26,556 nt of DNA from a virus. This document shows positions 9,287-24,096 of the stretch, piece after piece. A program made the translations under genes and the position numbers. The first letter of the stretch is position 1, and each line of letters begins with the position of its first letter. The notes beneath the pieces were generated by a model. It had not been told where the DNA came from and made no database searches. It saw only the letters and a program-made list of their open reading frames with translations. Where the stretch lies: IMG/VR virus record IMGVR_UViG_3300044464_000008, positions 1-26,556 of that record. One strand, 5' to 3'.

Positions 9287-9642
9287 GGAAGCGCCCGTTC
9301 CGGCTGTTCTGGTTGAAATTTGCAAGATCAACCGGCCGCAGCCCACGGGCGCTACAACGTGAGTTCAGTTACAAGGAAGCAAAGGAACTGATGGCATTGG
9401 AGGTCATAGAACCCAGCCCAATCATTCAGTTCGCCTTGTATATGTCGAAGTTCATGGCCCTGTTTGCGGAGTCTAATCGAGACAAGGAAAAGAAGGTTGC
9501 ACCCTTCACACTACTTGACTTCTTGATGAAATGGAGACGCAAGCGAGTTAAGAAGCAGACAGAGGATGAGATGGAACTATTCGCTAGAGCGCTAGCAGAA
9601 GCGATGCCCTATCATGGCCACCATAGCAACACTAGCGGCTAA
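9283..9642 (+). CDS. Tail assembly chaperone extension (gpT-like), made by -1 frameshift
   Basis: This is the downstream half of the frameshift product; the full gpGT-like protein would run from 8903 to 9642 with a slip at 9283. The extension begins LRKRPFRLFWLKFAR and includes a helical FSYKEAKELMALEV, IIQFALYMSKFMALF and a basic WRRKRVKK segment before an acidic helix. No ATG with a good Shine-Dalgarno sequence starts it; the first possible start, TTG 9313, lies inside a copy of the dispersed palindrome. The frame is closed by a TGA at 9265-9267 just upstream, so entry only through the slip fits well. It overlaps the tape measure start by 29 nt. Confidence 0.8.
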   Translation: MRKRPFRLFWLKFARSTGRSPRALQREFSYKEAKELMALEVIEPSPIIQFALYMSKFMALFAESNRDKEKKVAPFTLLDFLMKWRRKRVKKQTEDEMELFARALAEAMPYHGHHSNTSG

Positions 9643-11194
9643 GGTAACTGCGAACGGTGCGCAGTTTGAATCGGCTATGAAGGGCATCAAAAAGAAGACT
9701 GAGGAAACAGAACCGGCGCTTGATCGACTTGGTAAGGGGATGCTCCGCTTCAAGCACTTGGCGGTTGGCGCGGCTGTGGCCATTGCAGCCGCGTTCACTT
9801 CCTCAACTCTTGAGAATGCATTAGGTGACTTGCAATTTGCAAGGAACATCGGCGATGATGTTTCCAGCATCAAGGTGTTGCAGCAAGCCCTAAGAACTGT
9901 GGGTCAGGATGGTTCGCAAGCTGGCGAGATTCTGGGGCAGCTAGCCCAGACCATTGCCGGCGCTCGTTATAACTCCGGGATGCGGGAGACCTTTGAGCGG
10001 CTGGGGTTGTCTATCGACCAGCTAGCCGCGATGAAACCCAGCGCGCAACTGGCCACCATCTCAGCCGCGTTTGCAAACCTCAAGTCGCCGACCGAACAAG
10101 CAGCATTCGCTACCGCCATCTTCGGGGATAAGGCAGGGGCCATGCTGCCCATCCTCGCGCAAGGCAGCAAGGGGCTGAAGGATGCGGCCGACAAGACCAA
10201 TGCACTCGGGGGCAGCATCAGTAATCTTGATATGACCAATCTTGAGACCGCGAGCATCATGCTCAAAGACCTCAAGGCGCAGTTTCAAGGCTTCGTTACC
10301 GTGGTGATGGCTAACGTGCTGCCTACTCTCCTGGCAGTGGTCAACTCGTTCGGTAGTGCGACTGACAAGGCTATGATGATTCGGGACACGATGAAGGGCT
10401 TGACGGTGTACATCGCTGGCTTTGTGGCAGTCGTGAAGAATATTGCACGGGCTGTTCGCATCGTGCTGACGACGGTTGCCATCGGTGCGGGTCTCATCGT
10501 TACTAATGTTGCTGAGGCAATTGGCACACTGGCGAAGATGGCTGCCAAGCTGCCCAACGCACTCGGTGGGGATACGTTCAAAAAGGCTGCGGTCGGCATC
10601 GAGGCTGTGACTGAGAAGTGGCGCGCCAACCTAGACCAGATGCGGAACGACGTACACAACGACGTTGTCGAGATCGGTAACGAGTTTGAGCGGATGGGCG
10701 CTTGGGTTGCGAAGGTTGAAGAGGACGCAAACAAGATTGCGAAGGGTGCTGCCGCCATTCGCAATGCTGGTGGTGCTACGCCCATCGCGTTCGTCAACAA
10801 GCAACTGCTACAGGATGCGGCCGACGCCTTCCGAGAAGTGCAAACGCCAATGCAAGCGTTTGCGGATAAGTACCGGAAGCTGAATGACATGGTGATGGCA
10901 GGGGCCATCTCATGGAACACTTACAGCCGTGGGGTAATGGGTGCGGTCAAGCAGTTGGAGGATGCACACCAGCTTAGCAGCCTTGCGATGCCACAAGCAA
11001 TGTTGCAGGGCAGCAGCGAGACCGCGAACAAGATTGCACAAGCGCAGGTGGCAGATGACCGCCGCTACCGCGAGTCTCCGCAAGACCGTATCAAGCGAAT
11101 CCTTGAACAGTCTCTGGACATTGAGAAGCGCCAGCTAGAGGAAGCAAAGCGATTGGCTGCTGCGGCTGCCAACCAGAAAGTGGTGCGATTCTAA
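9614..11194 (+). CDS. Tape measure protein
   Basis: This 526-residue protein should set the tail length and sit inside the tube. It is Ala- and Lys-rich and largely helical. Hydrophobic segments lie at about residues 49-65 (LAVGAAVAIAAAF) and 255-300 (YIAGFVAVV, then VLTTVAIGAGLIV). The first section, with VTANGAQFESAMKGI and LENALGDLQFAR, is the usual start of tape measure proteins, and an EILGQLAQTIAG region follows. At roughly 1.5 angstrom per residue the tail would be on the order of 80 nm, short for a siphovirus; that is an estimate. No lysozyme or peptidase domain is visible inside it. It follows the frameshifting chaperones and precedes tail-tip genes. Confidence 0.9.
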   Translation: MATIATLAAKVTANGAQFESAMKGIKKKTEETEPALDRLGKGMLRFKHLAVGAAVAIAAAFTSSTLENALGDLQFARNIGDDVSSIKVLQQALRTVGQDGSQAGEILGQLAQTIAGARYNSGMRETFERLGLSIDQLAAMKPSAQLATISAAFANLKSPTEQAAFATAIFGDKAGAMLPILAQGSKGLKDAADKTNALGGSISNLDMTNLETASIMLKDLKAQFQGFVTVVMANVLPTLLAVVNSFGSATDKAMMIRDTMKGLTVYIAGFVAVVKNIARAVRIVLTTVAIGAGLIVTNVAEAIGTLAKMAAKLPNALGGDTFKKAAVGIEAVTEKWRANLDQMRNDVHNDVVEIGNEFERMGAWVAKVEEDANKIAKGAAAIRNAGGATPIAFVNKQLLQDAADAFREVQTPMQAFADKYRKLNDMVMAGAISWNTYSRGVMGAVKQLEDAHQLSSLAMPQAMLQGSSETANKIAQAQVADDRRYRESPQDRIKRILEQSLDIEKRQLEEAKRLAAAAANQKVVRF

Positions 11195-12321
11195 TGTCAG
11201 TCGTGCGAGTCATCACCAAGAGCGTTGGATGGGAGGGGGAAGCGGAAGCAGTCCGCAACAACCTTCTTTATGAGACCGTTGCGCGTCGCTACCGTGTCAT
11301 CAAGTGGGTGTACACGAACACCCCACATGATGGCCCGGAGACCATCATTGCCAGCCTACTAGTGCCGCAAGTCGGCAGCGCGTACAACCTGTTCAATGAT
11401 TCTGACGCGCTGGCAACATGCGTCCGGGTGTCACCCAAGCAGACCGCGTTCCCACTGCTCTGGGAACTTGAGTGCGTCTATGACACCGCGCGTATTGTCT
11501 CTGCCATCACTGACAACCCACTGTTGCAACCCCCGGAAATCCGTTGGGGTAGCATCAAGGTTGAACGTCCACTGGTCCGCGATGTCACCGGTGTTCCTGT
11601 CCTGAACAGCAGCAAGGAAGTATTCAACCCCGCGCTGACGTTTGAGGAGACCCGACCGCTACTGACCATCATCCGGAACGAGGCGACCTTCAACAAGGCC
11701 GATGCACTCTTCTATCAGGATGCCATCAATGAAGATGTCTTCGCCACCGCAGCACCGCTGAAGGCAAAGATTAACAGCATCGATGGTGTCAGCCAGCTTA
11801 CAAACGGGGTGGTCTACTGGCAGGTGACATACCAGATTGAATTCCGTCGTGAGGGCTTTGCGTACTTGGTTCTAGATCAAGGCTTCCGAGACATTGACAA
11901 GAAGCTATTCCGAGACCCCATCGACTTCGCGCCCCTTAGCTCCGAGACCTTGCTGAATGGGCGTGGTAGACCCCTGCGCGATTCAGTTGCCATGCTGACC
12001 GATGCAATGAACGCTACTGACCCGTTCATCAACTTCAATGACCCTTTCCGCTTCCCCCCTGGGAGTGAGAAGCTAATCAACGGCTGGATGCCGTCAGGTG
12101 ATTACTACTTTGATGTTCTGGTTGGGTCTGAGATTATCACAGTCACCCAAGCCAAGCCAATAGCATCATCGTTCCCACCGTGGACGTGCTTGAGGGCGCA
12201 ACGCAACACGGTTGCTGCGGCGCATGCTGTCGGAGCAGAAGTCAGGTTGGAACCATACTTCAAGCGGTTCCTCCCATACAAGGTTCTGCCGTTCTCTGAC
12301 CTCAACTTACCGGCGGTATAA
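11194..12321 (+). CDS. Hypothetical tail protein (distal tail or hub candidate)
   Basis: The 375-residue product is not recognised. It starts in a TAATG overlap with the tape measure gene and ends in another with the Cys-rich tail protein. It is rich in beta-forming residues, with RRYRVIKWVYTN, PLLWELECVYDT, a VYWQVTYQIEFRREGF strand pair and DYYFDVLVGSE. It has few Cys and no signal peptide or membrane segment. In siphoviruses this slot normally holds the distal tail protein or hub, so a tail-tip or baseplate role is likely. It could alternatively be a side protein unique to this phage group. Confidence 0.8.
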   Translation: MSVVRVITKSVGWEGEAEAVRNNLLYETVARRYRVIKWVYTNTPHDGPETIIASLLVPQVGSAYNLFNDSDALATCVRVSPKQTAFPLLWELECVYDTARIVSAITDNPLLQPPEIRWGSIKVERPLVRDVTGVPVLNSSKEVFNPALTFEETRPLLTIIRNEATFNKADALFYQDAINEDVFATAAPLKAKINSIDGVSQLTNGVVYWQVTYQIEFRREGFAYLVLDQGFRDIDKKLFRDPIDFAPLSSETLLNGRGRPLRDSVAMLTDAMNATDPFINFNDPFRFPPGSEKLINGWMPSGDYYFDVLVGSEIITVTQAKPIASSFPPWTCLRAQRNTVAAAHAVGAEVRLEPYFKRFLPYKVLPFSDLNLPAV

Positions 12322-13742
12322 TGAACGACCTTTTTAGTTTTGATAAGTCTGGCATTGAACGCATCATCGCCACAGTCCGGCGCATGGAGTATACCGCGCA
12401 CGAGAGCGGTGGAACGGGCTTGCAATTTGCAATCCGGGATAGCCGCAGCGTTGCCGCGGTCATTGTGTCGGCGCGCCAAACGAACGGCATGTTCAAGGCA
12501 AAGTTTGTTAAGGCACCGGAGCGCACGACCACTACCACCACGACAAGCACCAGCACGACTGACACCACAACCACCACGAGTAGTACCACGGTCATACCGC
12601 CCGGTTTCTGTCGGTGGGAGTACATCACTGACGAACTGTTTGATTGCTGGCTGTGCGTGCGAGGAGATGACACCACCAATGCACTACAGGTCGGGGATGT
12701 ATTCTCGGCACTGGTGGTTGGCGAGTTTGATGATGGCCTGCCTATCGTCGTACACTCCGACACTTGCACCGCGCCAAGCAGCACCACCACCAGCACGACC
12801 ACGACCACCACACAGCCCCCACTCGGGGATTGCTCCGCGTATGAGGGGTTCGGGGAGTTGTGCTTGCGCTTCTTCATCACCACCGGGCAAAGCAACGGCA
12901 ACGGGTGGCACGGCTACACCACCACACTTACCGAGACTTCACCGGGTGTGTATGAGAACTGCCTTGGGCTGGCTGAACCCCCGAATTGGGATGGGTGTTA
13001 CACCAAGCTTCGTGCGGTCTGCTCTGGCCCGCCCGACTACCTATTCATTCTGTACACGTTCGGCGTTGAGGATTGTAACGATCCAACGGGGGCTGCGCCG
13101 TGCTGTGCGTACAACTATGTTGGCTGGACCCCGCCCCAGGGCATCGCCGCGATTGAACTGGAAACCACGCCCGTGTTGCGCGGGCGTTGGAACGCTTACA
13201 ACATCACCCCATTCCCCGGCGGATACCAGAACACCTGCTATGACACCAACACGAACACTGCGATCCTGTTCAGCAGTGACATGAGCATCTGTAACGCGCC
13301 ACCGACACCAACCACAACCACTAGCACGACCACGACGACTACCACGCTACCCCCCGATACCTGTTGCAACCACGGTGCGATTGGTGTCGAGATTCGCAGC
13401 CTCTGCCCGTGCGCTGAGGATGTCAGCTTCTGTGCATTTGGCACGGCCGGATCGCAATCATGGTCTGGTGAGTTTGCGGGCTGCGATCCGTATTGGGTCG
13501 GCATTGTGGCAGTTAGCGTGAGTTGTGACACCGGGATTTATACAATCGTGTTGGGTGAGGGGGAGACTGAGACCACGATTGAGATTCAAGGTCTCGATGA
13601 ATACTTCGATGCCGAGACCGCCGCGATATGTGGGGTGCTAAGCCCCTTCAGAATACGGTTGACGTGCGGGGGTGATTGTACTCAATACACCACCACCACG
13701 AGTACCACAACCACTACAACCACGGATGAGGGGCCACCATAA
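12321..13742 (+). CDS. Cys-rich tail-tip or fibre protein with four poly-Thr linkers
   Basis: The 473-residue product has four blocks divided by Thr/Ser-rich linkers. An N-terminal domain spans about residues 1-68, a small Cys domain about 91-152, a larger Cys-rich block about 165-328 and a further Cys-rich block about 343-456. Linkers lie at about 69-90, 153-164, 331-342 and 457-468, each almost only Thr with a few Ser. The blocks hold many Cys residues (CCNHGAI, CPCAED, DCWLCV, PCCAYNY), which suggests disulfide-bonded or metal-bound domains. The protein has no signal peptide. It lies after the tail gene and before two glycosyltransferases, so I infer an exposed, perhaps glycosylated, tail-tip protein. 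Function is unknown. TAATG links it to the glycosyltransferase gene. Confidence 0.85.
   Translation: MNDLFSFDKSGIERIIATVRRMEYTAHESGGTGLQFAIRDSRSVAAVIVSARQTNGMFKAKFVKAPERTTTTTTTSTSTTDTTTTTSSTTVIPPGFCRWEYITDELFDCWLCVRGDDTTNALQVGDVFSALVVGEFDDGLPIVVHSDTCTAPSSTTTSTTTTTTQPPLGDCSAYEGFGELCLRFFITTGQSNGNGWHGYTTTLTETSPGVYENCLGLAEPPNWDGCYTKLRAVCSGPPDYLFILYTFGVEDCNDPTGAAPCCAYNYVGWTPPQGIAAIELETTPVLRGRWNAYNITPFPGGYQNTCYDTNTNTAILFSSDMSICNAPPTPTTTTSTTTTTTTLPPDTCCNHGAIGVEIRSLCPCAEDVSFCAFGTAGSQSWSGEFAGCDPYWVGIVAVSVSCDTGIYTIVLGEGETETTIEIQGLDEYFDAETAAICGVLSPFRIRLTCGGDCTQYTTTTSTTTTTTTDEGPP
12525..13724 (+). repeat. Four poly-Thr linker tracts in the tail protein gene
   Basis: Four ACN-rich tracts lie at about 12525-12590, 12777-12812, 13311-13346 and 13689-13724. 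Each is almost wholly Thr codons of mixed third base (ACC, ACG, ACT, ACA), with occasional AGC or AGT for Ser. The mixed synonymous codons argue that the amino acid sequence is under selection and that this is not plain DNA slippage. They could act as flexible spacers or as mucin-like O-glycosylation tracts. Confidence 0.85.
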
Positions 13743-15061
13743 TGAAGTTCTCGATTGGCATGGCTACTTTTGATGATTTCAATGGTGTTTATTTCACGGT
13801 GATGAATCTCATGATGAATCACCGTGAGTGGATTCATGAAATCATTATCGTGGATAACAACCCGACCGGGCCACAGTCCCAGAGGCTGAAGGAATTCGTT
13901 GCAAATTGCAACGGTGCTCTCATCCGCTATGTGCCGCTTGAACACCCGCAAGGCACGGCACCACCGCGCAACCGGGTGTTTGCTGAAGCCACGTCCGAGT
14001 ACGTTGTCTGTTTGGATAGTCACGTCCTGCCAGTCGCGGGTTTCTTCGATGCCCTGGCCGCGTTCTTTGAGGCACATCCGGACTGCACAGACCTAGTGCA
14101 AGGGCCGTTGCTGTATGACAACCTCATTGGTCTCAGCACTCACTTTGCCGACGCATGGCGCGAAGGGATGTGGGGAACATGGGACTATGACCAGAGGGTT
14201 GAAACCGACCCGTGGTTTGAAATCCCTGCGCAGGGGCTTGGCTTCTTCTCGTGTCGCAAGGCTGCGTGGCTGGGCTTTAACCCCAGCTTCCGGGAGTTTG
14301 GAGGAGAGGAATGGTACATCCACGAGAAGTACCGTCAGGCTGGCAACCGTACCATGTGCGTGAGCGGGTGCAAGTGGGTGCATCGCTTCAATGTCAACCC
14401 GGCATACAAACACACCCGCATGCAATTGATCCGCAATTACATCATTGGGCATCGGGAATTGAACATTCCGCTTGACCGATGCCGCCAGCATTTTAGCCGG
14501 ATGATTACTGAAGACCAGTGGTCTGACCTCATCGGCAAGCCATGCATGGGATGCACCCTGCGCGGGGCTTACGATTGGGCACGCAACACCGCATCGGACA
14601 TCAACGAGCATGTGCCGGTGCTGGCGTTGCTGGCAGCCGGTGAGGTTGTGTATGACTGCTCCATCCGCCACCACGCCAGCACGATTGCGTTCGCGCATGG
14701 CAAGCCCTCCAAACTGTGGATCGTCAACCCCACGCTACCGGCTGTGTTAACGAAGATCACGCGGCACGGGGTTGATGCCGAGTGGTTGACAGGGGACAGC
14801 TTGACGGCTGAGGTCAAGCCGCACGATGTTCTGTTCATTGACACTATCCATACCGGGGAACACTTGCGGGCTGAGTTGGCACGGCTGCTGCCCCACACTC
14901 GCAAGCGGCTGGTGGTGCATGACACGGTGACCTACGGCGACGTTGGCACTGATGGCAAGCCGGGGCTGTTGCACACGCTGAAGGATTGTGGCTGGGTGGT
15001 TGAGCGGCACTATGACAACAACAACGGTCTAACAATCATGGTGCCACATGCTGCGAGCTAG
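13742..15061 (+). CDS. Glycosyltransferase (DxH type) fused to a methyltransferase-like domain
   Basis: The 439-residue product is a GT-A fold glycosyltransferase in its first roughly 260 residues. An N-terminal strand FSIGMATFDDF and EIIIVDNN at 33-40 resemble the nucleotide-binding start of GT2-type enzymes. The metal-binding motif is DSH at 92-94, as in polypeptide GalNAc-transferases (GT27). A GGEE at 187-190 and WVHRF at 212-216 fit the acceptor or catalytic region and a late His of that family. The C-terminal part (about 275-435) has VLFIDTIHTGEHL and RLVVHDTVTYGD, which resemble class I methyltransferase (Methyltransf_24/CmcI-like) strands. It follows the poly-Thr tail gene, so the tail protein is a plausible acceptor. 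The sugar donor is unknown. Confidence 0.85.
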   Translation: MKFSIGMATFDDFNGVYFTVMNLMMNHREWIHEIIIVDNNPTGPQSQRLKEFVANCNGALIRYVPLEHPQGTAPPRNRVFAEATSEYVVCLDSHVLPVAGFFDALAAFFEAHPDCTDLVQGPLLYDNLIGLSTHFADAWREGMWGTWDYDQRVETDPWFEIPAQGLGFFSCRKAAWLGFNPSFREFGGEEWYIHEKYRQAGNRTMCVSGCKWVHRFNVNPAYKHTRMQLIRNYIIGHRELNIPLDRCRQHFSRMITEDQWSDLIGKPCMGCTLRGAYDWARNTASDINEHVPVLALLAAGEVVYDCSIRHHASTIAFAHGKPSKLWIVNPTLPAVLTKITRHGVDAEWLTGDSLTAEVKPHDVLFIDTIHTGEHLRAELARLLPHTRKRLVVHDTVTYGDVGTDGKPGLLHTLKDCGWVVERHYDNNNGLTIMVPHAAS

Positions 15062-15746
15062 CGCAATCTGCCCCACGTTCAACCGGCCCGCGCTGGTGTG
15101 CGAAGCTGTGTATTGGTTCACGCAGCAGACGTGGGGCAACAAGGAGTTGATTGTACTAAACGACAACCCCCGCATGCTGTTGTTCACCCATGTTCCAAAC
15201 GTGGTCATCTACAACGAGCGGGTTCGCTTCCCGACGTTGGGTGAGAAGTATAACGAATTGATCCATCTGGCCACGGGTGATGTTATCTTCCCCTGGGAGG
15301 ATGATGATATCAGTTTGCCGTTGCGTATTCAGCAAGGGCTAACGGCGATGGGAACGTATGCTTATTGGAACCCGCGACGAACGTGGTACGAAGATTCTCG
15401 GGGTCTGCATCACGAACACCAACATGGATACTGTGTCAACGCATCATGCTTCTTGAAGTCATTCGCCCAACGTGTTCCGTTCAGGCCGGTGACAGGCAAT
15501 CAGGATGCTGACTGGTGGACACGGGCGCACGATGAGTGCAACCCCAACCAGCTTGAAAATTGCAAGAACTGGCAGTACGTGTATCGCTGGGGCGTAACCG
15601 AACATCTCAGTGGGCACAAGCACATGCAACAGGCGTATGACTCAGCCTATCAGGTTGAGGGCGAGTTTGAAATCAAGGCCACAAAGGGGGAAGACTATGC
15701 GACACTTTGCGATCTGCATGCTAGGGGTGTTGCTGCTGGCAACTAG
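15048..15746 (+). CDS. Glycosyltransferase family 2-like
   Basis: The 232-residue product is a compact GT-A enzyme. It opens with ASAICPTFNRP and QTWGNKELIVLNDNP, the usual nucleotide-sugar-binding start, then GEKYNELIHLATGDVIFPWEDDD, where EDDD provides the DxD metal-binding motif at about residues 83-86. A GNQDADWW and a C-terminal HLSGHKHM follow. It overlaps the preceding glycosyltransferase by 14 nt and the following peptidase-like gene by about 50 nt. It probably extends or adds a sugar in the same pathway. The acceptor is not visible; the tail protein, a surface component or another sugar are possible. Confidence 0.87.
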   Translation: MLRASAICPTFNRPALVCEAVYWFTQQTWGNKELIVLNDNPRMLLFTHVPNVVIYNERVRFPTLGEKYNELIHLATGDVIFPWEDDDISLPLRIQQGLTAMGTYAYWNPRRTWYEDSRGLHHEHQHGYCVNASCFLKSFAQRVPFRPVTGNQDADWWTRAHDECNPNQLENCKNWQYVYRWGVTEHLSGHKHMQQAYDSAYQVEGEFEIKATKGEDYATLCDLHARGVAAGN

Positions 15747-17061
15747 CAGCCGGGGCATCGAACCGGGTGGCCCCACGCATTCCGGCATCCGGGCGACGGC
15801 CGATCTTCCGACCACGCAGCACAAGCGCAACGTCGGTGGGTCTGATGGTGCCGGTCTCTGCGTGTATACCAGTGCGTGGCATTCGGCCATCTGGCAAGAC
15901 GTGCGGTCGCTGTTTGATTTCCGCGCATGGATGCAGCAGCGACCTGGGGGCAGCTACCCCGAGAAGTTTGACACCACCATGAAAGGGTATTGTGCGTCCA
16001 AGGGTATTACGATCCCGGACTACATCCAGCACACCGGGGGTGATGTGGAGTTCTTGCGGTTGGCCTTGCGAACGGGGCGCATGCCGGCTGTCACCTACTG
16101 CGGGGTTGATGGCCAGGGCCGGTATGGTAATCAGGTGATTGCACACATGGTGTCCCTGGCGCACCTTGATAGTGAACGGGCTGCCATCATTGACAACAAC
16201 TTTCCCGGCAACTGGCTGTGGATGACTGCGGCTGAGTTCATCGAGCGGTGGAAGGGGGAACGGGCGAACGGCCAGAAGTATTACGTGAGCGACGGTCGGC
16301 GTCAATTCCCTGTTGGTGGTGGGTGGGCTATTGTGTTCCTCGCGCCCCCTCCCCCACCTTACGTCACCCCTCCATTCGGTGGGGTGTCAGTTGGGCAGTG
16401 TGGCCCGCAAGGTTGCAGCCCCCAACCGCTACCGCTGGCCGGTGACACTAGCTCCGATGCGGTAGGGCTTCCGCCCTCTGATGCTCACGAGTGGGGCATT
16501 TGCATCAATGGTCAATGGGGGTGGAAGCTGAAGGATGCACAGCCCTTGCAAGTTGCAAGCCAGTTCCTTCAAGGTGGGGTGATATCTGACCGAATCCCCC
16601 TAGCACCGAGGTACACTCGACGGGGCACAGAGGTCAGCGCAGATGATGCAATGGTAGCTTTGTCGCTGTCCGACGATTCCGGCAAGTGGAACCTTGCTGT
16701 GGTGGGTGACGCGGCGTTCGTTACGCGAGTGAGGGCAGACCTCTTCACACTGACGAATGAACTGCGGGAGAAGTGCCATGTGCAGACCTACAGCCCCGAT
16801 GCGTGGCAGGTCGCACAGTTCGGGTTGCAATCTGGTGTCACTCTGCGGAAGTCTGCCACCAACCGAATTGCGGCCGACGTTGGCGCTCTGACTCCCGCCG
16901 AGTACACCAGTGTGAAGCTGGCAACGCTCATTGGTGACAAGCCCGTGGTGCCGGTGCCACCGCCAGTGCCCGTGCCCGTGCCACCGCCCATGAAACCGTT
17001 GAACGTCCCACCGTGGGTGTTGCTTGCGCTTCTCGTGGCCCTATTACTTCGGAGGAAATGA
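15697..17061 (+). CDS. Secreted, membrane-anchored cysteine-peptidase-like protein
   Basis: I choose ATG 15697, with an AGGGGG site seven to eight nt upstream, rather than an upstream reading inside the glycosyltransferase gene. The 454-residue product begins with a signal-peptide-like MRHFAICMLGVLLLATSSRG. Next comes a domain that looks papain-fold-like: Cys55 in GLCVYTS, His150 in IAHMVSLAHLD and Asp/Asn at 166-168 in IIDNNFPG, followed by WMTAAEFIERW. A Pro-rich PPPPP stretch, a second unknown domain and a Pro-Val linker (VPVPPP) precede a C-terminal hydrophobic segment and RRK. This fits an exported protein held in the inner membrane. A lysis or entry role is possible. The peptidase reading is by pattern only. 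Confidence 0.78.
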   Translation: MRHFAICMLGVLLLATSSRGIEPGGPTHSGIRATADLPTTQHKRNVGGSDGAGLCVYTSAWHSAIWQDVRSLFDFRAWMQQRPGGSYPEKFDTTMKGYCASKGITIPDYIQHTGGDVEFLRLALRTGRMPAVTYCGVDGQGRYGNQVIAHMVSLAHLDSERAAIIDNNFPGNWLWMTAAEFIERWKGERANGQKYYVSDGRRQFPVGGGWAIVFLAPPPPPYVTPPFGGVSVGQCGPQGCSPQPLPLAGDTSSDAVGLPPSDAHEWGICINGQWGWKLKDAQPLQVASQFLQGGVISDRIPLAPRYTRRGTEVSADDAMVALSLSDDSGKWNLAVVGDAAFVTRVRADLFTLTNELREKCHVQTYSPDAWQVAQFGLQSGVTLRKSATNRIAADVGALTPAEYTSVKLATLIGDKPVVPVPPPVPVPVPPPMKPLNVPPWVLLALLVALLLRRK

Positions 17062-18139: not shown

Positions 18140-19162
18140 TTACTTCACCGGGGTCTCTTTCGAGTAGTCCACACCTTCCAACTTGCACACGAGCTTGGCA
18201 ACCTCTTCCTCATCACACTCGCCGACGACGTAGGACATGAAGGATTGTGCCACGGTGCGGATGACGACGTGTGTGTCATCACCCGTGTATCGCGCCATCA
18301 TGTCCTTGACCTGCTTAATGCTCCTCTGGGTGGTGACACGGATTGGCTTGGTGCGGCGCGGCGCGAGCGGGGCTGCAACCCCGCTCGACTTCGGGACTGC
18401 GGTGGTGGTGTCAACCACAGTCGGCGGGACGGTAGGCGGGGTTGCCGCGGGCGGGCTGGCACCTTCCGGGTTGGCTTCGTTCAACTTACGGAGCTTCTCA
18501 TCCTCGCGGTGGTCCCGCGCGGACAGCTTGCGTGCGGTCTCCTGTACCACGTCCGCTGTGACGTGCCCAACCTCGATGAGTGCGGCACGCTGGTCTTCCG
18601 GAACTTTCAGCAGTGCGAGGGCCGCAGACACGGCGATGTCACCCGTGTGAACGCGACGTTGTGTGTCCTCATCCAACTCCAGCAGCTTCTTGGCGCGGGA
18701 GACACGCCCCGCATCCCACCCGTACAGTTTGGCGATTTGCGCCCCCGTGTAACCGTCGTCGCGCAGTTCCCGTTGGCGGTAGGCGTGATCGATTTCGCTC
18801 AGCTCGGTGCGGTCGGTGTTCTCCCGAATATTCATCTCGCGGAGCAACTTCGCGTCATCCCCGGAGACTAGCTTGACCTCCAACGTAAACTCGGGGTTGT
18901 GCTTCTCCATCTCGCATCCCGCCAGCCAGCGGGTGAACCCGACCACGAGGTTGGGCTTACCACCCGAACCGCGGTAGCACAGCACCGGCTGTAGCTGTCC
19001 ACTGGCGCGGAAGCTGGACACCATCCGCTTAACCGCGGTGTGGTCTTCATCCGCGAACTTGCTCCGACCACGCTTCGCCATGTCAGCCACGATGAGGCTG
19101 GGCTTGATGTTCGCGGTCTCACCCTTGACGGCATCCACCTTGAACAGCTTGGAAACGGCCAT
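18140..19162 (-). CDS. ParB-like DNA-binding protein
   Basis: The start is ATG 19162, with AGGAG eight nt upstream, rather than an upstream reading. The 340-residue product has a ParB/Srx-like N-terminal domain (about 35-115, with LQPVLCYRG, VVGFTRWLAG and IRENTDRTELSE, matching the usual ENL.R..L..IE box). A helix-turn-helix region follows (about 125-185, GYTGAQIAKLYGWDAGRVSRAKKLL), then a Pro-rich linker and a unique C-terminal domain. ParB proteins bind palindromic sites and can spread on DNA using CTP. No ParA-type ATPase lies beside it. It is the best candidate in this window for recognising the dispersed TTGCAA palindrome. Transcription regulation or genome organisation are alternatives. 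Confidence 0.88.
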   Translation of the reverse strand: MAVSKLFKVDAVKGETANIKPSLIVADMAKRGRSKFADEDHTAVKRMVSSFRASGQLQPVLCYRGSGGKPNLVVGFTRWLAGCEMEKHNPEFTLEVKLVSGDDAKLLREMNIRENTDRTELSEIDHAYRQRELRDDGYTGAQIAKLYGWDAGRVSRAKKLLELDEDTQRRVHTGDIAVSAALALLKVPEDQRAALIEVGHVTADVVQETARKLSARDHREDEKLRKLNEANPEGASPPAATPPTVPPTVVDTTTAVPKSSGVAAPLAPRRTKPIRVTTQRSIKQVKDMMARYTGDDTHVVIRTVAQSFMSYVVGECDEEEVAKLVCKLEGVDYSKETPVK

Positions 19163-19192
19163 CTGAACCACTCCTAACAGGAACCTTGTGTA

Positions 19193-19217
19193 CCCTCCCG
19201 GCGAAGTGCCGGGAGGG
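19193..19217 (-). promoter_or_regulatory. G+C-rich hairpin upstream of the ParB-like gene
   Basis: CCCTCCCGGC (19193-19202) pairs with GCCGGGAGGG (19208-19217) around a GAAGT loop. It lies 11 nt from the end of the upstream gene and 31 nt before the ParB-like start. Neither strand carries a downstream T-run, so it may be a processing or stability element or a weak terminator. Confidence 0.5.
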
Positions 19218-19228
19218 AAAACCAACCA

Positions 19229-20433: not shown

Positions 20434-20592
20434 TCAGTGCCAGGGAAGTTGCAAGATACGTATGCTGTTGGACAAGGTCAGAAAGCTTGCAAATTTCAAC
20501 CCGTAGGGCGGCAACTCGGCGACACGCTTGGCTGCCACCAAGTCCCACTCTTCCACGAGCGCAACGATGTCAACTTGCACTTTCAAGTTCAT
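20434..20592 (-). CDS. Tiny hypothetical protein (52 aa)
   Basis: The ATG at 20592 has GGGAG eight nt upstream. The 52-residue product reads MNLKVQVDIVALVEEWDLV, then a RVAELPPYGLKFASF middle and LTLSNSIRILQLPWH at the end. No family is recognised. It overlaps the end of the HD-domain gene by 23 nt in another frame, a usual phage arrangement. The dispersed motif copy at 20487-20499 lies inside its coding region. Another imperfect, 12-nt variant lies near its start at 20575-20586. Confidence 0.6.
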   Translation of the reverse strand: MNLKVQVDIVALVEEWDLVAAKRVAELPPYGLKFASFLTLSNSIRILQLPWH

Positions 20593-21094
20593 GTTTGACT
20601 CTCCCATAAGCATAGATGAATAAGTGTCGAGTCTCGTGTGGTTCCCGACGCTTCACGACCCCAGCATCGGCAAACTGACCCTGGGTGAAGAAATGCCATT
20701 CCTCCATGGCCCCAACCGCGTTGTCAATTGCTTTCAACTCTGGGGTGTGGAGGTACGGGATACCCCAAGCGTCGAACAGCACGCTGGTAACGTGTTGCTC
20801 GAAGTCCCTGTACCATTTCATTTCGGGCCGGTGCTTCAACCAACGTGGCATATCTTTGCACACAGCTTCCCCCATGTCGTGGCAGAGGGCATTTATGAGC
20901 AGCACGGCATCCGCGGAGGTCTTACGTGCGAGGTCATAGCACGCTAGCTGATGGTCAAGCACCGACCACGGGGTTGGAGTCATCCCACCCCACCGGGGTT
21001 CGTTGCTGAGCGCGTACATGCAGTCATGTACGGACAGCTTACGTAGGTCGGCATCGTTGAATGCATCGAGCATTCGCCCGGTCACTGTGAGCAT
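20570..21094 (-). CDS. HD-domain phosphohydrolase
   Basis: The 174-residue product starts at ATG 21094 with GGAG eight nt upstream. It shows the classic small-phage HD pattern: CMYALSNEPRWGG, then SVLDHQ (His48), HDMGEA (His72, Asp73, Glu76), KDMPRWLK (Asp81), and an EQHV helix. Such metal-dependent proteins in the YfbR/HDDC2-like group often hydrolyse nucleotides, for instance dNMPs or dATP; the substrate is not set by these motifs. It lies in the run with the dGTPHyd_N-like protein, a DUF4406 protein and a polymerase, so dNTP pool control is a good reading. Confidence 0.88.
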   Translation of the reverse strand: MLTVTGRMLDAFNDADLRKLSVHDCMYALSNEPRWGGMTPTPWSVLDHQLACYDLARKTSADAVLLINALCHDMGEAVCKDMPRWLKHRPEMKWYRDFEQHVTSVLFDAWGIPYLHTPELKAIDNAVGAMEEWHFFTQGQFADAGVVKRREPHETRHLFIYAYGRVKHELESAS

Positions 21095-21636
21095 AGCTGC
21101 ATCTCCAGCGCGAACAGGATGCGGCATGCCGCATGATTCAAGTGGGGTTCCTGTGTGTCCCCAGTCTGTAGCGCGAGCAGATGGATGAGCGCGTGGTTCA
21201 GATGCTCAGTGACCGTGATGTTCCGCCAGTTGCCTTCCCCGTACTTCTCCGCGCCGACCTTCAGTGTGGCTGCCACATCCAGCACAGCCAGGGCGGGAAG
21301 TAGATCGGCGCGGTACGCCACCGCCCCCTGCCTACCCCCAAGTTCGTTGGTGTGGGTCTCGGTGGGGATGTTGACGCGCATAGCGGCTGGGGGCTGCGTG
21401 GTCGTGGTGGGGAAAGTGGCCCAACAGACATCACACATGCCGTACTCATTGCCCCACTTGCCGTGCTTGTCGCATCGCTTGGCTAGCACGGTCGTGATCG
21501 ACCAGCCCCCAACATAGGACGGATCGGGAACGGAATCAACCCGCACGATGGGTGGGAAGTCTGCCACAGCGCGGGTTGCGTTGATCTTCTGCAAATCATA
21601 CGGTGGCGCACCAATGGGGCCAAAGTTCTCTAACAT
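21082..21636 (-). CDS. dATP/dGTP diphosphohydrolase N-domain-like protein
   Basis: The 184-residue product carries a late domain of the DUF5664/dGTPHyd_N type: NELGGRQGAVAYRADLL, AATLKVGAEKYGEGNWR, TEHLNHALIHL and HLNHAACRILFALEMQL in the expected order (about 97-182). The fold is MazG/NTP-PPase-like and members act on dNTPs or are unknown. An early half includes CDKHGKWG and GMCDVCWA, a possible zinc-binding insertion before the domain. The start is in a TAATG overlap with the upstream gene; it overlaps the HD gene by 13 nt. It may act in nucleotide pool control for replication or DNA modification. Confidence 0.8.
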   Translation of the reverse strand: MLENFGPIGAPPYDLQKINATRAVADFPPIVRVDSVPDPSYVGGWSITTVLAKRCDKHGKWGNEYGMCDVCWATFPTTTTQPPAAMRVNIPTETHTNELGGRQGAVAYRADLLPALAVLDVAATLKVGAEKYGEGNWRNITVTEHLNHALIHLLALQTGDTQEPHLNHAACRILFALEMQLCSQ

Positions 21637-22169
21637 TACTTAAGACCCTCAATCAATTCGGGGATGGAACAGAACACCGGGATGCCCAGCCGCTTCGCCT
21701 CAGCAACCTCAATGTCTGCGCCCTTGCTCTCACCGGGAAGCAGAAGCACGGCGTGGCACACGTCAACCCAAGGGAGGTCAATACCCAGCCAATCATCGTG
21801 AGTCATGTCGGTGCTGCCGAACGTGGTTGCTTGACACCACACTTCAAGCCCCTGAAAGATCGCGGGCTTGCAGTAGGCCGACCAGTGGGGGCAGAGTGGT
21901 GCGAACCCAGCCTTAGCCAGCGCAATGAACGCCTCAGTTGCTTGGTTGACGTTGTGTGCCAGGTCACCTTTGCTGATGGGACCGGCGATGTAGACGCGCT
22001 TCCGTCGGAAGGCTGCCATGCCAGACGCCAGCTTCCGAGTTGCCTCAAGCTGTGTGCGTTCACGATGCATGCTGTCGGCAATGTCAGCTTCCATCTTCGC
22101 GTAGACGCACTCGTCGCAGCGACCCGCATAGGGAATGGCTGCTTCGCACCGACCGTTACAAGGATTCAT
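21636..22169 (-). CDS. DUF4406 / nucleoside 2-deoxyribosyltransferase-like protein
   Basis: The start is ATG 22169, with GGGAG five nt upstream. The 177-residue product has a Cys-rich N-terminus (C4, C8, C18, C21), perhaps a zinc knuckle, and a coiled helix. The core follows: RVYIAGPIS (about 58-66), a GFAPLCPHW segment, DLPWVDVCHAVLLLPGESKGADIEVAEA and GIPVFCSI. That set is usual for DUF4406 and the related deoxyribosyltransferase fold. The catalytic Glu appears within the SKGADIE stretch. It could move deoxyribose between bases or act on sugar nucleotides; the substrate is unknown. TAATG links it to the diphosphohydrolase-like gene. Confidence 0.83.
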   Translation of the reverse strand: MNPCNGRCEAAIPYAGRCDECVYAKMEADIADSMHRERTQLEATRKLASGMAAFRRKRVYIAGPISKGDLAHNVNQATEAFIALAKAGFAPLCPHWSAYCKPAIFQGLEVWCQATTFGSTDMTHDDWLGIDLPWVDVCHAVLLLPGESKGADIEVAEAKRLGIPVFCSIPELIEGLK

Positions 22170-22963
22170 GGTTTCTCCCAAAGGCATTCGGTCATGGTTC
22201 GTTTGGTGCTGCCAGACGCAGCGTGGTTTGCAACTTTCAACTCGTGCCGTTTCCACTTCGACAATTCGTAGTCGTACAACTCCGAACAGTAGCCACTGAT
22301 GAACACTTGCCCTTGCATCGCCTTGGCTGCCATCAGCATTTTGAGATGCTGGTATTCCGTCATCTCGTGTTCGTACACTTCCTTGGCAGCCCGCGTGCTT
22401 TGCAAGTAGGGCGGATCAAGGTAGTGTAGTGTATGCTTGGAATCCTCTGACACCATCACGTCGATTGCTTCACCACATCGCAGAGCTACCCGTTGCAGCC
22501 GGTAGCTGATGGTTTCCAGATCGTCAACCGCACCCTGCCACGCGCTGACCTGTTCGTTGATGCCCCGCCGGGTGCGCGTCTTGCTGAGTGGGTGCCATGC
22601 TGACATCCTACCCGCCATCGACTGGCGACAGTGGATGAAGAACCAACACGCCGCGTCAATGTGGTCACACGGATGCAACTTACCCAGCCCGGTAAGAGCA
22701 TCCCGCCACAGGGCTTCACTGACTGGAAGGTGAGTGACCACGCTTGCAAATTGCAAACGGTCTTCCGGGTGGGCCACAACCCGCCAAAAGTTGATGAGCC
22801 TTTGGTTGCAGTCGTTCACAACCTCTGAGATTGCGGGGGCTGGCAGCCCTGCCAACAGCACTGCCAGTCCGCCCGCGTATGGTTCAACATAGTGTTTGTG
22901 GGGCTTGAAGTGCGAGCGAATCCAACCCGCAATTGGTTCCTTACCCCCGTGCCACTTCAACAT
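22166..22963 (-). CDS. DNA adenine methyltransferase (D12 class, Dam-like)
   Basis: The start is ATG 22963, with GGAGG seven nt upstream, rather than longer readings. The 265-residue product begins MLKWHGGK, followed by YVEPYAGGLAVLL (the SAM-binding motif) at about 25-37, and has DPPY at 183-186, the catalytic motif of N6-adenine methyltransferases. The order (SAM motif first, DPPY later) is as in Dam. It probably methylates adenines in a short site to guard the phage genome against restriction or to mark replicated DNA; the site is unknown. It starts just after the stop of the upstream gene, so translation may be coupled. Confidence 0.92.
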   Translation of the reverse strand: MLKWHGGKEPIAGWIRSHFKPHKHYVEPYAGGLAVLLAGLPAPAISEVVNDCNQRLINFWRVVAHPEDRLQFASVVTHLPVSEALWRDALTGLGKLHPCDHIDAACWFFIHCRQSMAGRMSAWHPLSKTRTRRGINEQVSAWQGAVDDLETISYRLQRVALRCGEAIDVMVSEDSKHTLHYLDPPYLQSTRAAKEVYEHEMTEYQHLKMLMAAKAMQGQVFISGYCSELYDYELSKWKRHELKVANHAASGSTKRTMTECLWEKP

Positions 22964-22964
22964 A

Positions 22965-23516
22965 TCAAACCCTCCAACCAGAGTTTCGTTCATACTCGCC
23001 GGTCGTGCAGCGCACTTCCCATATGATGGTATTGCTGGGGCCAAAGGCCCATGCCGCGCCAGCCATCACTGTGAACTCAATCACATGGTCCGGGTACTGC
23101 TCCACAAGTTCCAGCAGCGTTGCCCACCCGATGTCATCCATGATGCCGCGGAGATACATGCGGGCTTGCAGCCCATTCAGATAGCAAACGGCGCACCCAT
23201 CCATGCTGGGCACCAGCTTGCACGGTTTCGGGTCGGGGCTGTAATGCAGGAACCAATCCGGTTGAACCAGTAAGTGACCATAGCACACCCGGTGCGGATC
23301 GGACAGCATCGGGCTGAGGTTGTAGCTACCATCGGGGAGGTTGCGAACCATCGCCAAGGCTTCGTGTGCTTCAAGCCCGAACACTGTCTTGCTGCCACAG
23401 GTCTTGAACCTCACAGCCCACTTGCCCGGACGGGTTGTCAGTTGCAACGCGTCAGGAAGGTTCTCAGCCGCGGGGAGGGTGTGGCCTAGCAGACCATCAT
23501 TCAGCAACTCATACAT
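22965..23516 (-). CDS. Hypothetical protein
   Basis: The likely start is ATG 23516, right after the upstream stop; its ribosome site is weak. The 183-residue product contains MYELLNDGLLGHT, LTTRPGKWAVRFKTCGSKTVF, a MDGCAVCYLNGLQARMYLRG middle, and a final VIEFTVMAGAAWAFGPSNT and TIIWEVR. No family is recognised. The mixed beta and helical pattern suits a cytosolic globular protein. It lies between an unknown gene and Dam, in the replication and modification run. Confidence 0.68.
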   Translation of the reverse strand: MYELLNDGLLGHTLPAAENLPDALQLTTRPGKWAVRFKTCGSKTVFGLEAHEALAMVRNLPDGSYNLSPMLSDPHRVCYGHLLVQPDWFLHYSPDPKPCKLVPSMDGCAVCYLNGLQARMYLRGIMDDIGWATLLELVEQYPDHVIEFTVMAGAAWAFGPSNTIIWEVRCTTGEYERNSGWRV

Positions 23517-23538
23517 GCGATGCTTGCTGGTGATGGGA

Positions 23539-24054
23539 CTAGGCAAGGTATGTGCCCTCAGTAATGCCACGGAAGATGTTGACGCGCTTTCGGTCGGGCC
23601 GCATGCCAGGGCACGGCACCCCGGCGACGCGCTCAGCAAGCTGGTGGCTGCCGTTAATCTCCCGCTCTGCGTAAAGCGATTCAACGATCATACGCCAGCG
23701 AATGTAGGCATCCACATCAGGGAGACATTCGGGGAGCGCCTTCATGCTTCGACCGTCACGCCCCACCGACAAGACGACAAGGTGTGTCCAGCAATCTTGT
23801 GGCAGGGCTTCCACGAACGTTATCAGTCCATAGACTTTACCCGGCCCACGGTATGGGTTGACAACAGGTTCGGGGATGCCCTGACCGTAACCGTCAAGCA
23901 TGGTCTTGACGAATGAAGTCTTGCCGTCTTGGTGGTTGAATTCGACGTGCGACAGTTCAGGGTGCATCACACCTTGCCACGAGCGCATGGGACGCCACAG
24001 CACACAGCCAGGGGTGATGACTTTGGTGATTTGATTGAAAGGAACTTCACGCAT
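23539..24054 (-). CDS. Hypothetical protein
   Basis: The 171-residue product is not recognised. It opens MREVPFNQITKVITPGCVLWRP and contains HVEFNHQDGKTSFVKTMLDG, VYGLITFVEALPQDCWTHLVVLSVG and a C-terminal helix with AEREINGSHQLAERV. A HVEF..GKT pair could recall a nucleotide-binding loop but does not match a full Walker A. A GTG at 24066 is an alternative start. The dispersed motif copy at 24071-24083 lies just upstream of this gene, and the tRNA-like gene lies next on that side. Confidence 0.68.
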   Translation of the reverse strand: MREVPFNQITKVITPGCVLWRPMRSWQGVMHPELSHVEFNHQDGKTSFVKTMLDGYGQGIPEPVVNPYRGPGKVYGLITFVEALPQDCWTHLVVLSVGRDGRSMKALPECLPDVDAYIRWRMIVESLYAEREINGSHQLAERVAGVPCPGMRPDRKRVNIFRGITEGTYLA

Positions 24055-24096
24055 TGTCAGTCTCACTTAATTGCAATTTGCAAGGGTCAGAGGCAG

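Follow-up and report, generated by a model that had tools for sequence, protein, structure and literature searches.

A GalNAc-transferase-like enzyme encoded directly behind a poly-threonine tail protein in uncultured tailed phages: a putative virion-glycosylation module

A virus record of 26.6 kb from IMG/VR (IMGVR_UViG_3300044464_000008, analyzed over its 26,556 nucleotides and referred to here as the window) encodes a Cys-rich tail protein with four long Thr/Ser tracts, followed immediately by two glycosyltransferases (GTs), GT1 and GT2b. The predicted fold of GT1 is closest to the polypeptide GalNAc-transferases (family GT27), which in animals begin the glycosylation of mucus proteins, and among relatives of GT1 the gene directly upstream is the preferred location of Thr-rich tracts. 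We consider it fairly probable that the poly-Thr gene, GT1 and GT2b constitute a virion-glycosylation module, in which GT1 acts on the Thr residues of the tracts and GT2b extends the glycan. Phages that carry a tract gene together with GT1 probably sugar-coat their own tails.

Gene order and genome context

The left part of the window is a siphovirus structural block, with genes for the terminase, portal, protease, capsid, connectors, major tail protein and tape measure. Behind the tape measure come one tail-region gene, the poly-Thr gene, GT1 and GT2b (Table 1), the last three of which overlap. A preliminary description, made from the sequence alone, had proposed that the poly-Thr gene and the first GT are joined in TAATG coupling and that a second GT comes next; the end of the poly-Thr gene and the start of GT1 do share a single base, and GT2b overlaps the end of GT1. 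Phage-encoded GT genes within the structural block are a feature of phage virion glycosylation systems; in the window they stand behind the tape measure. The window has no identified gene for a sugar-nucleotide pathway or for hypermodified-base synthesis. Neither a lipid-carrier flippase nor a membrane GT is evident beside the GT1/GT2b pair.

The next gene downstream (15709-17061, +) appears to encode a secreted, membrane-anchored protein (N-terminal MRHFAICMLGVLLLATSS, a Pro-rich stalk, and a C-terminal hydrophobic segment plus RRK). It has no Pfam or NCBIfam match, and by eye it resembles papain-like peptidases. Further along, a reverse-strand block (20570-24066 (-) and 18140-19225 (-)) encodes a nucleoside 2-deoxyribosyltransferase, the N-terminal domain of a dATP/dGTP diphosphohydrolase, a D12-type DNA methyltransferase and a ParB-like protein.

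Table 1. Features of the tail region and of the putative glycosylation module (positions in the window).
Feature	Position	Strand	Basis or remark
Tape measure (phrog_9483)	9614-11194		
Further tail-region gene between tape measure and poly-Thr gene	11194-12321		
Minor tail protein rich in Cys (24 Cys), with poly-Thr tracts, 473 aa	12321..13742	+	ORF; presumed glycan acceptor
Tract 1, residues 69-90 (22), TTTTTTTSTSTTDTTTTTSSTT	12525..12590	+	
Tract 2, residues 153-164 (12), SSTTTSTTTTTT	12777..12812	+	
Tract 3, residues 331-342 (12), TTTTSTTTTTTT	13311..13346	+	
Tract 4, residues 457-468 (12), TTTTSTTTTTTT, C-terminal	13689..13724	+	
GT1, GT27-like glycosyltransferase with C-terminal methyltransferase-like domain, 439 aa	13742..15061	+	PF00535 4.5e-10; predicted fold
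D92-S93-H94, DxH metal motif; D and H invariant in 38 relatives	14015..14023	+	Alignments
G187-G188-E189-E190, aligned to GGE of GalNAc-T10	14300..14311	+	Alignments
H214 (WVHRF), in register with the GHIYR His of GalNAc-T10, which is the third Mn ligand of GT27	14381..14383	+	Alignments
Methyltransferase-like domain of GT1 (CmcI/RMNT type)	14558..15046	+	Pfam in relatives; alignment
GT2b, GT-A enzyme, 232 aa, presumed glycan extender	15048..15746	+	PF00535 6.9e-8; alignment; predicted fold

The poly-Thr tail protein

The 473-aa protein, presumably a structural component of the tail tip or fibre of this siphovirus, has no match in Pfam, PHROG or NCBIfam. BLAST of its non-tract parts against its counterparts in relatives also gave no match; the non-tract parts of those counterparts do match one another. 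All four Thr/Ser tracts are present at the lengths first described (22, 12, 12 and 12 residues), and when the residues of the protein were shuffled 5000 times, no T/S run came up to the longest one observed (12). Only DEGPP remains after tract 4, so this tract is not a spacer between two domains.

Thr codons within the tracts (ACC 24, ACG 13, ACA 6, ACT 5) do not differ in usage from those elsewhere in the phage (chi-square p = 0.45). As the earlier argument from codon mixture held, selection acts on the amino acid, and the tracts are no DNA-level triplet expansion. Two Val-rich antisense ORFs, at 12302-12901 (-) and 13238-13531 (-), are mirror artefacts of the ACN tracts.

Fold and active site of GT1

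PF00535 (Glycos_transf_2) is matched by all 38 aligned GT1 relatives, and the positions invariant across these 38 include D92, H94, G187-E190 and H214. An AlphaFold (AF2) model of GT1 built from the 38 relatives has a mean pLDDT of 93 and no obvious membrane helix. When this model was searched with Foldseek, the best 50 PDB matches were all polypeptide GalNAc-transferases (E 2.3e-14 to 5.5e-11), headed by 2ffu, GalNAc-T2 with UDP and peptide (E 2.3e-14); the comparison with 6nqt_B extends over 257 columns at 3.4 A. GT2b, folded in the same way as a control (pLDDT 86), has no polypeptide GalNAc-transferase among its best 50 PDB matches, and the GT27 result is therefore specific to GT1. The preliminary description had seen a resemblance to GalNAc-transferases in DxH, GGEE and WVHRF elements of the first GT; these are where it placed them (D92-S93-H94, F186-GGEE-190 and W212-VHRF), and the structure comparison with GT27 supports the resemblance.

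The metal ligands of GT27 are the DxH motif and a later His (PMC4202792, PMC11074326, PMC4432651), i.e., D224, H226 and H359 for manganese in GalNAc-T2 (PMC4432651) and D276, H278 and H414 in a Toxoplasma GalNAc-T (PMC11074326). In a profile alignment of GT1 with the catalytic domain of GalNAc-T10, DSH, PFExP..GLF, GGE and the metal His are in register, so that D92-x-H94, GGE and H214 of GT1 fall on motifs of the metal site and the peptide site of GT27. Similarity to GT27 at the sequence level is weak: a single-sequence PDB search with GT1 returned chance matches only, and the profile that was needed to retrieve GalNAc-T10 (E 0.0036 and 0.0062) ranked it below TarP and TagF. Over the nucleotide-binding half of GT1, sequence profiles score TarP above GT27.

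GT1 thus resembles GalNAc-T1, T2, T10 and Toxoplasma T3 in its GT-A fold, in the DxH plus later His, and in the aligned PFExP..GLF and GGE elements, and it is associated with long tracts of Thr, which are acceptors of a type that some GT27 members glycosylate. It differs from them in its low identity (~18%), in being phage-encoded and presumably soluble, and in having a methyltransferase-like domain in the place of the C-terminal ricin-B lectin domain, which by Pfam is absent from the 38 GT1 members. Given the missing lectin domain and a chemistry that is a prediction, we do not claim membership in GT27. The closest viral predicted structure is that of an uncultured Caudovirales protein, A0A6J7WYC1 (Glyco_tranf_GTA_type; TM 0.81 of target, 30% identity), which unlike GT1 is a single GT domain of 288 residues.

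The GT2 polysaccharide enzymes (TarP, SpsA, heparosan synthase) share the GT-A superfamily with GT1, yet GT1 is structurally nearer GT27; it is GT2b that is closest to these enzymes, with fold matches to heparosan synthase, SpsA, TarP, WrtF and RmlT. D85-D86-D87 and D153 of GT2b are invariant in an alignment of 17 relatives.

A methyltransferase-like domain fused to GT1

The O-methyltransferase-like domain at the C-terminus of GT1 was absent from the preliminary description. Among the 38 GT1 relatives, 9 match Methyltransf_24 and 5 match RMNT_CmcI; the match of the window's GT1 to Methyltransf_24 is at 0.013. In relatives the SAM-binding glycine motif looks intact (TEFGxRxGxST), while the corresponding residues in the window's GT1 (YDCSIRHHAST) are degenerate, which makes methylation by this copy doubtful. 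Judged by its sequence, the domain is probably weakened or dead in the window's GT1. Some relatives (e.g., L002, L014, L033 and L089) have an extra Cys-rich tail at the C-terminus, RLxxCxxCxxRxxxRCxxCGC, which the window's GT1 does not have; this tail is probably DUF6171, matched by 8 of the 38 members.

Association of GT1 with tract genes

A search with GT1 yielded 11 viral relatives, and a profile scan yielded at least 428 confirmed relatives in viral contigs and 27 in bacterial or archaeal assemblies, several of which are planctomycete. With five family members as queries, tblastn gave no match among isolated phages in 50,697 deposited phage records. We retained 80 of the 428 relatives from viral contigs for analysis, and sorted the GT1 loci into 62 clusters with a cutoff of 75% identity. 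A tract was defined as a 14-residue window with at least 12 T/S/P, at least half T.

By this definition the gene at position -1 of GT1 has a tract in 28 of the 59 scorable clusters, compared with 14 of 283 for all other positions (-4 to -2 and +1 to +4; Fisher 7e-15), with the reservation that clusters made at this identity are partly dependent on one another. At +1 the count is 1 of 54 clusters. The distance from the end of the tract gene to the start of GT1 is ≤60 nt in 24 of the 29 tract-bearing cases. The two genes are therefore found together across phages much more often than chance would give, which answers the question raised about the pair when it was first described.

On the GT1 tree the window belongs to a clade of 18 rows (support 96/96), with an adjacent upstream tract in every row other than L008, which has a poly-Thr stretch elsewhere on its contig, and L105, which is not scorable. 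In most members of this clade a GT2b relative is encoded within 2 kb downstream of GT1 on the same strand. Over the whole tree at least 10 changes between the tract and non-tract states are needed, and the pairing is thus neither a single inherited accident nor strict. GT1 relatives with no tract nearby follow genes for a portal, a terminase or a DNA polymerase, indicating that the family has other uses. Of 14 records with no adjacent tract, 4 have poly-Thr elsewhere on the contig and 10 have no 8-Thr stretch, many of them being fragments.

The partner proteins in the window's clade range from 283 to 1412 aa; the majority are rich in Cys, with poly-Thr linking their repeated C-x-G-x-C-x-W modules. 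Outside the clade, partners are often small and mucin-like (104-206 aa, about 30-40% Thr). The tract is C-terminal in 13 of the 29 partner proteins, and these tracts cannot be spacers.

Two further observations concern individual relatives. The mucin-like proteins encoded upstream of GT1 in L040, L074, L085, L087 and L088 (118-206 aa, about 31-40% Thr) have a common C-terminal motif, Cx2-4C(K/N)xL(G/N/Q)(F/Y). One relative has a richer glycan cassette (L006:8537-11307), in which GT1 and a free methyltransferase-like gene are followed by a further methyltransferase, a sulfotransferase-like gene (HVPKTGGTS), a GT2b relative and an epimerase-like gene, the sulfotransferase and epimerase being assigned by eye only.

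Starting from poly-Thr

The association was also approached from the opposite direction, with a sample of 120 phage stretches containing 11 Thr codons, drawn from among the matches listed. A GT1 relative is present at about 4 of these 120, so poly-Thr does not need GT1; it is a common phage device that usually occurs without it. The preliminary description had set Thr-rich proteins lacking the GTs against its own reading. The outcome of that check is mixed: Thr-rich proteins without GT1 do predominate among poly-Thr loci, and in the other direction GT1 does track poly-Thr genes. Downstream neighbours of poly-Thr genes are GTs in about 5 of 51 cases and in about 3 of 100 for distant control genes at the same loci, a difference that is based on crude neighbour calls (greedy ORF tiling) and that we do not claim to be significant.

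Within this sample, L204 is the only untruncated protein having both several C-x-C-x-aromatic motifs and >5% Cys, and GT1 and GT2b follow it. The protein of L211 also has several of these motifs and is cut by the end of the stretch, that of L166 has several with low Cys and neither GT, and that of L223 is Cys-rich without the motif and is followed by GT2b alone.

Alternative roles of the tracts and the GTs

The scarcity of GT1 at poly-Thr loci is what would be expected if the tracts were unmodified flexible linkers and both GTs, like those of mycobacteriophages, glycosylated other virion proteins (capsid, tail tube). Phages do have GTs with capsid and tail-tube proteins as substrates (PMC12619734, PMC11600133), and the tracts do separate Cys-rich modules. 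We nevertheless think this unlikely: GT1 is placed directly behind the tract gene and not behind capsid or tail-tube genes, the 13 C-terminal tracts join nothing, and the fold predicted for GT1 is closest to transferases acting on Thr/Ser peptides.

It is distinctly improbable that the GTs alter a host surface polysaccharide (receptor conversion or superinfection exclusion) and are located in the tail operon by chance or timing. The lack of an evident flippase or membrane GT beside the pair, and of an obvious membrane helix in the GT1 model, argues against such a role, as do the position of the GTs in the late structural block and the pairing of GT1 with tract genes. In its favor are the resemblance of GT2b to polysaccharide GTs, the PHROG 'GtrB-like O-antigen conversion', which is matched by at most 3 of 38 GT1 members, and the finding that some GT1 relatives, on bacterial contigs, are large GT proteins of cells.

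Glycosylation of DNA bases is reported for certain phage GTs (PMC12619734), but modification of phage DNA or of a small molecule is very improbable here, given that the nearest folds are peptide and polysaccharide transferases rather than DNA glucosyltransferases and that the window has no identified gene for hypermodified-base synthesis. Finally, although ACN repeats can expand by slippage, the probability that the tracts are merely a triplet repeat of the DNA, with no meaning for the protein, is negligible; we rejected it on the mixture of synonymous codons at the phage's normal frequencies, and tracts recur upstream of this one GT family in many proteins that differ from each other.

Proposed glycosylation of the tail

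From the evidence for a virion-glycosylation module we infer the following scheme of substrate, order of action, sugar and biological role. During late expression in the host cytoplasm, translational coupling would bring GT1 beside its acceptor. GT1, as a putative soluble, metal-dependent GT-A enzyme built like the polypeptide GalNAc-transferases, would transfer a first sugar from a host nucleotide sugar to tract Thr (perhaps Ser), and GT2b would add a second sugar. O-methylation by the methyltransferase-like domain of GT1 may cap the glycan in relatives. The product would be a mucin-like, stiff and hydrophilic tail appendage that resists proteases.

A stronger version of this scheme is possible, though we lean against it: these lectin-less relatives of eukaryotic polypeptide GalNAc-transferases in tailed phages, many of which probably infect Planctomycetes, may make true mucin-type (alpha-GalNAc-Thr) tail domains, in which case poly-Thr mucin-type initiation would exist in bacterial viruses too.

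Relation to known systems and implications

Virion glycosylation by phage GTs is already known from mycobacteriophages, including Che8 and Corndog (Freeman et al. 2023, as cited in PMC12619734 and PMC11600133; glycosylation genes, PMC4351075), and we regard a GT27-like enzyme with a poly-Thr tail protein as a new variant. As that work is summarized in the papers citing it, phage GTs are encoded in the structural block, as they are here, together with an O-methyltransferase, whose counterpart here would be the methyltransferase-like domain of GT1, degenerate in this copy; glycosylation is reported on virion proteins. The glycans there are on the C-termini of capsid and tail-tube proteins, whereas GT1, whose nearest family is GT27, has a Cys-rich tail protein with poly-Thr tracts as its partner. 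The Che8 GT is a distant fold match of GT1 (rank 18). In the literature covered, we found no report of a GT27-like enzyme, or of phage GTs, paired with poly-Thr tail proteins.

If the proposed module is real, a family of at least 428 relatives in uncultured phages carries its own enzyme for the initiation of protein-linked sugar chains, an enzyme that is paired with mucin-like tail proteins in roughly half of the GT1 lineages sampled. This would be a phage route of protein modification distinct from the mycobacteriophage case and a possible prokaryotic-virus counterpart of GT27. It would also provide a source of soluble enzymes that place sugars on Thr-rich peptides, and would point to a way in which these phages shield or adjust the appendages that bind receptors.
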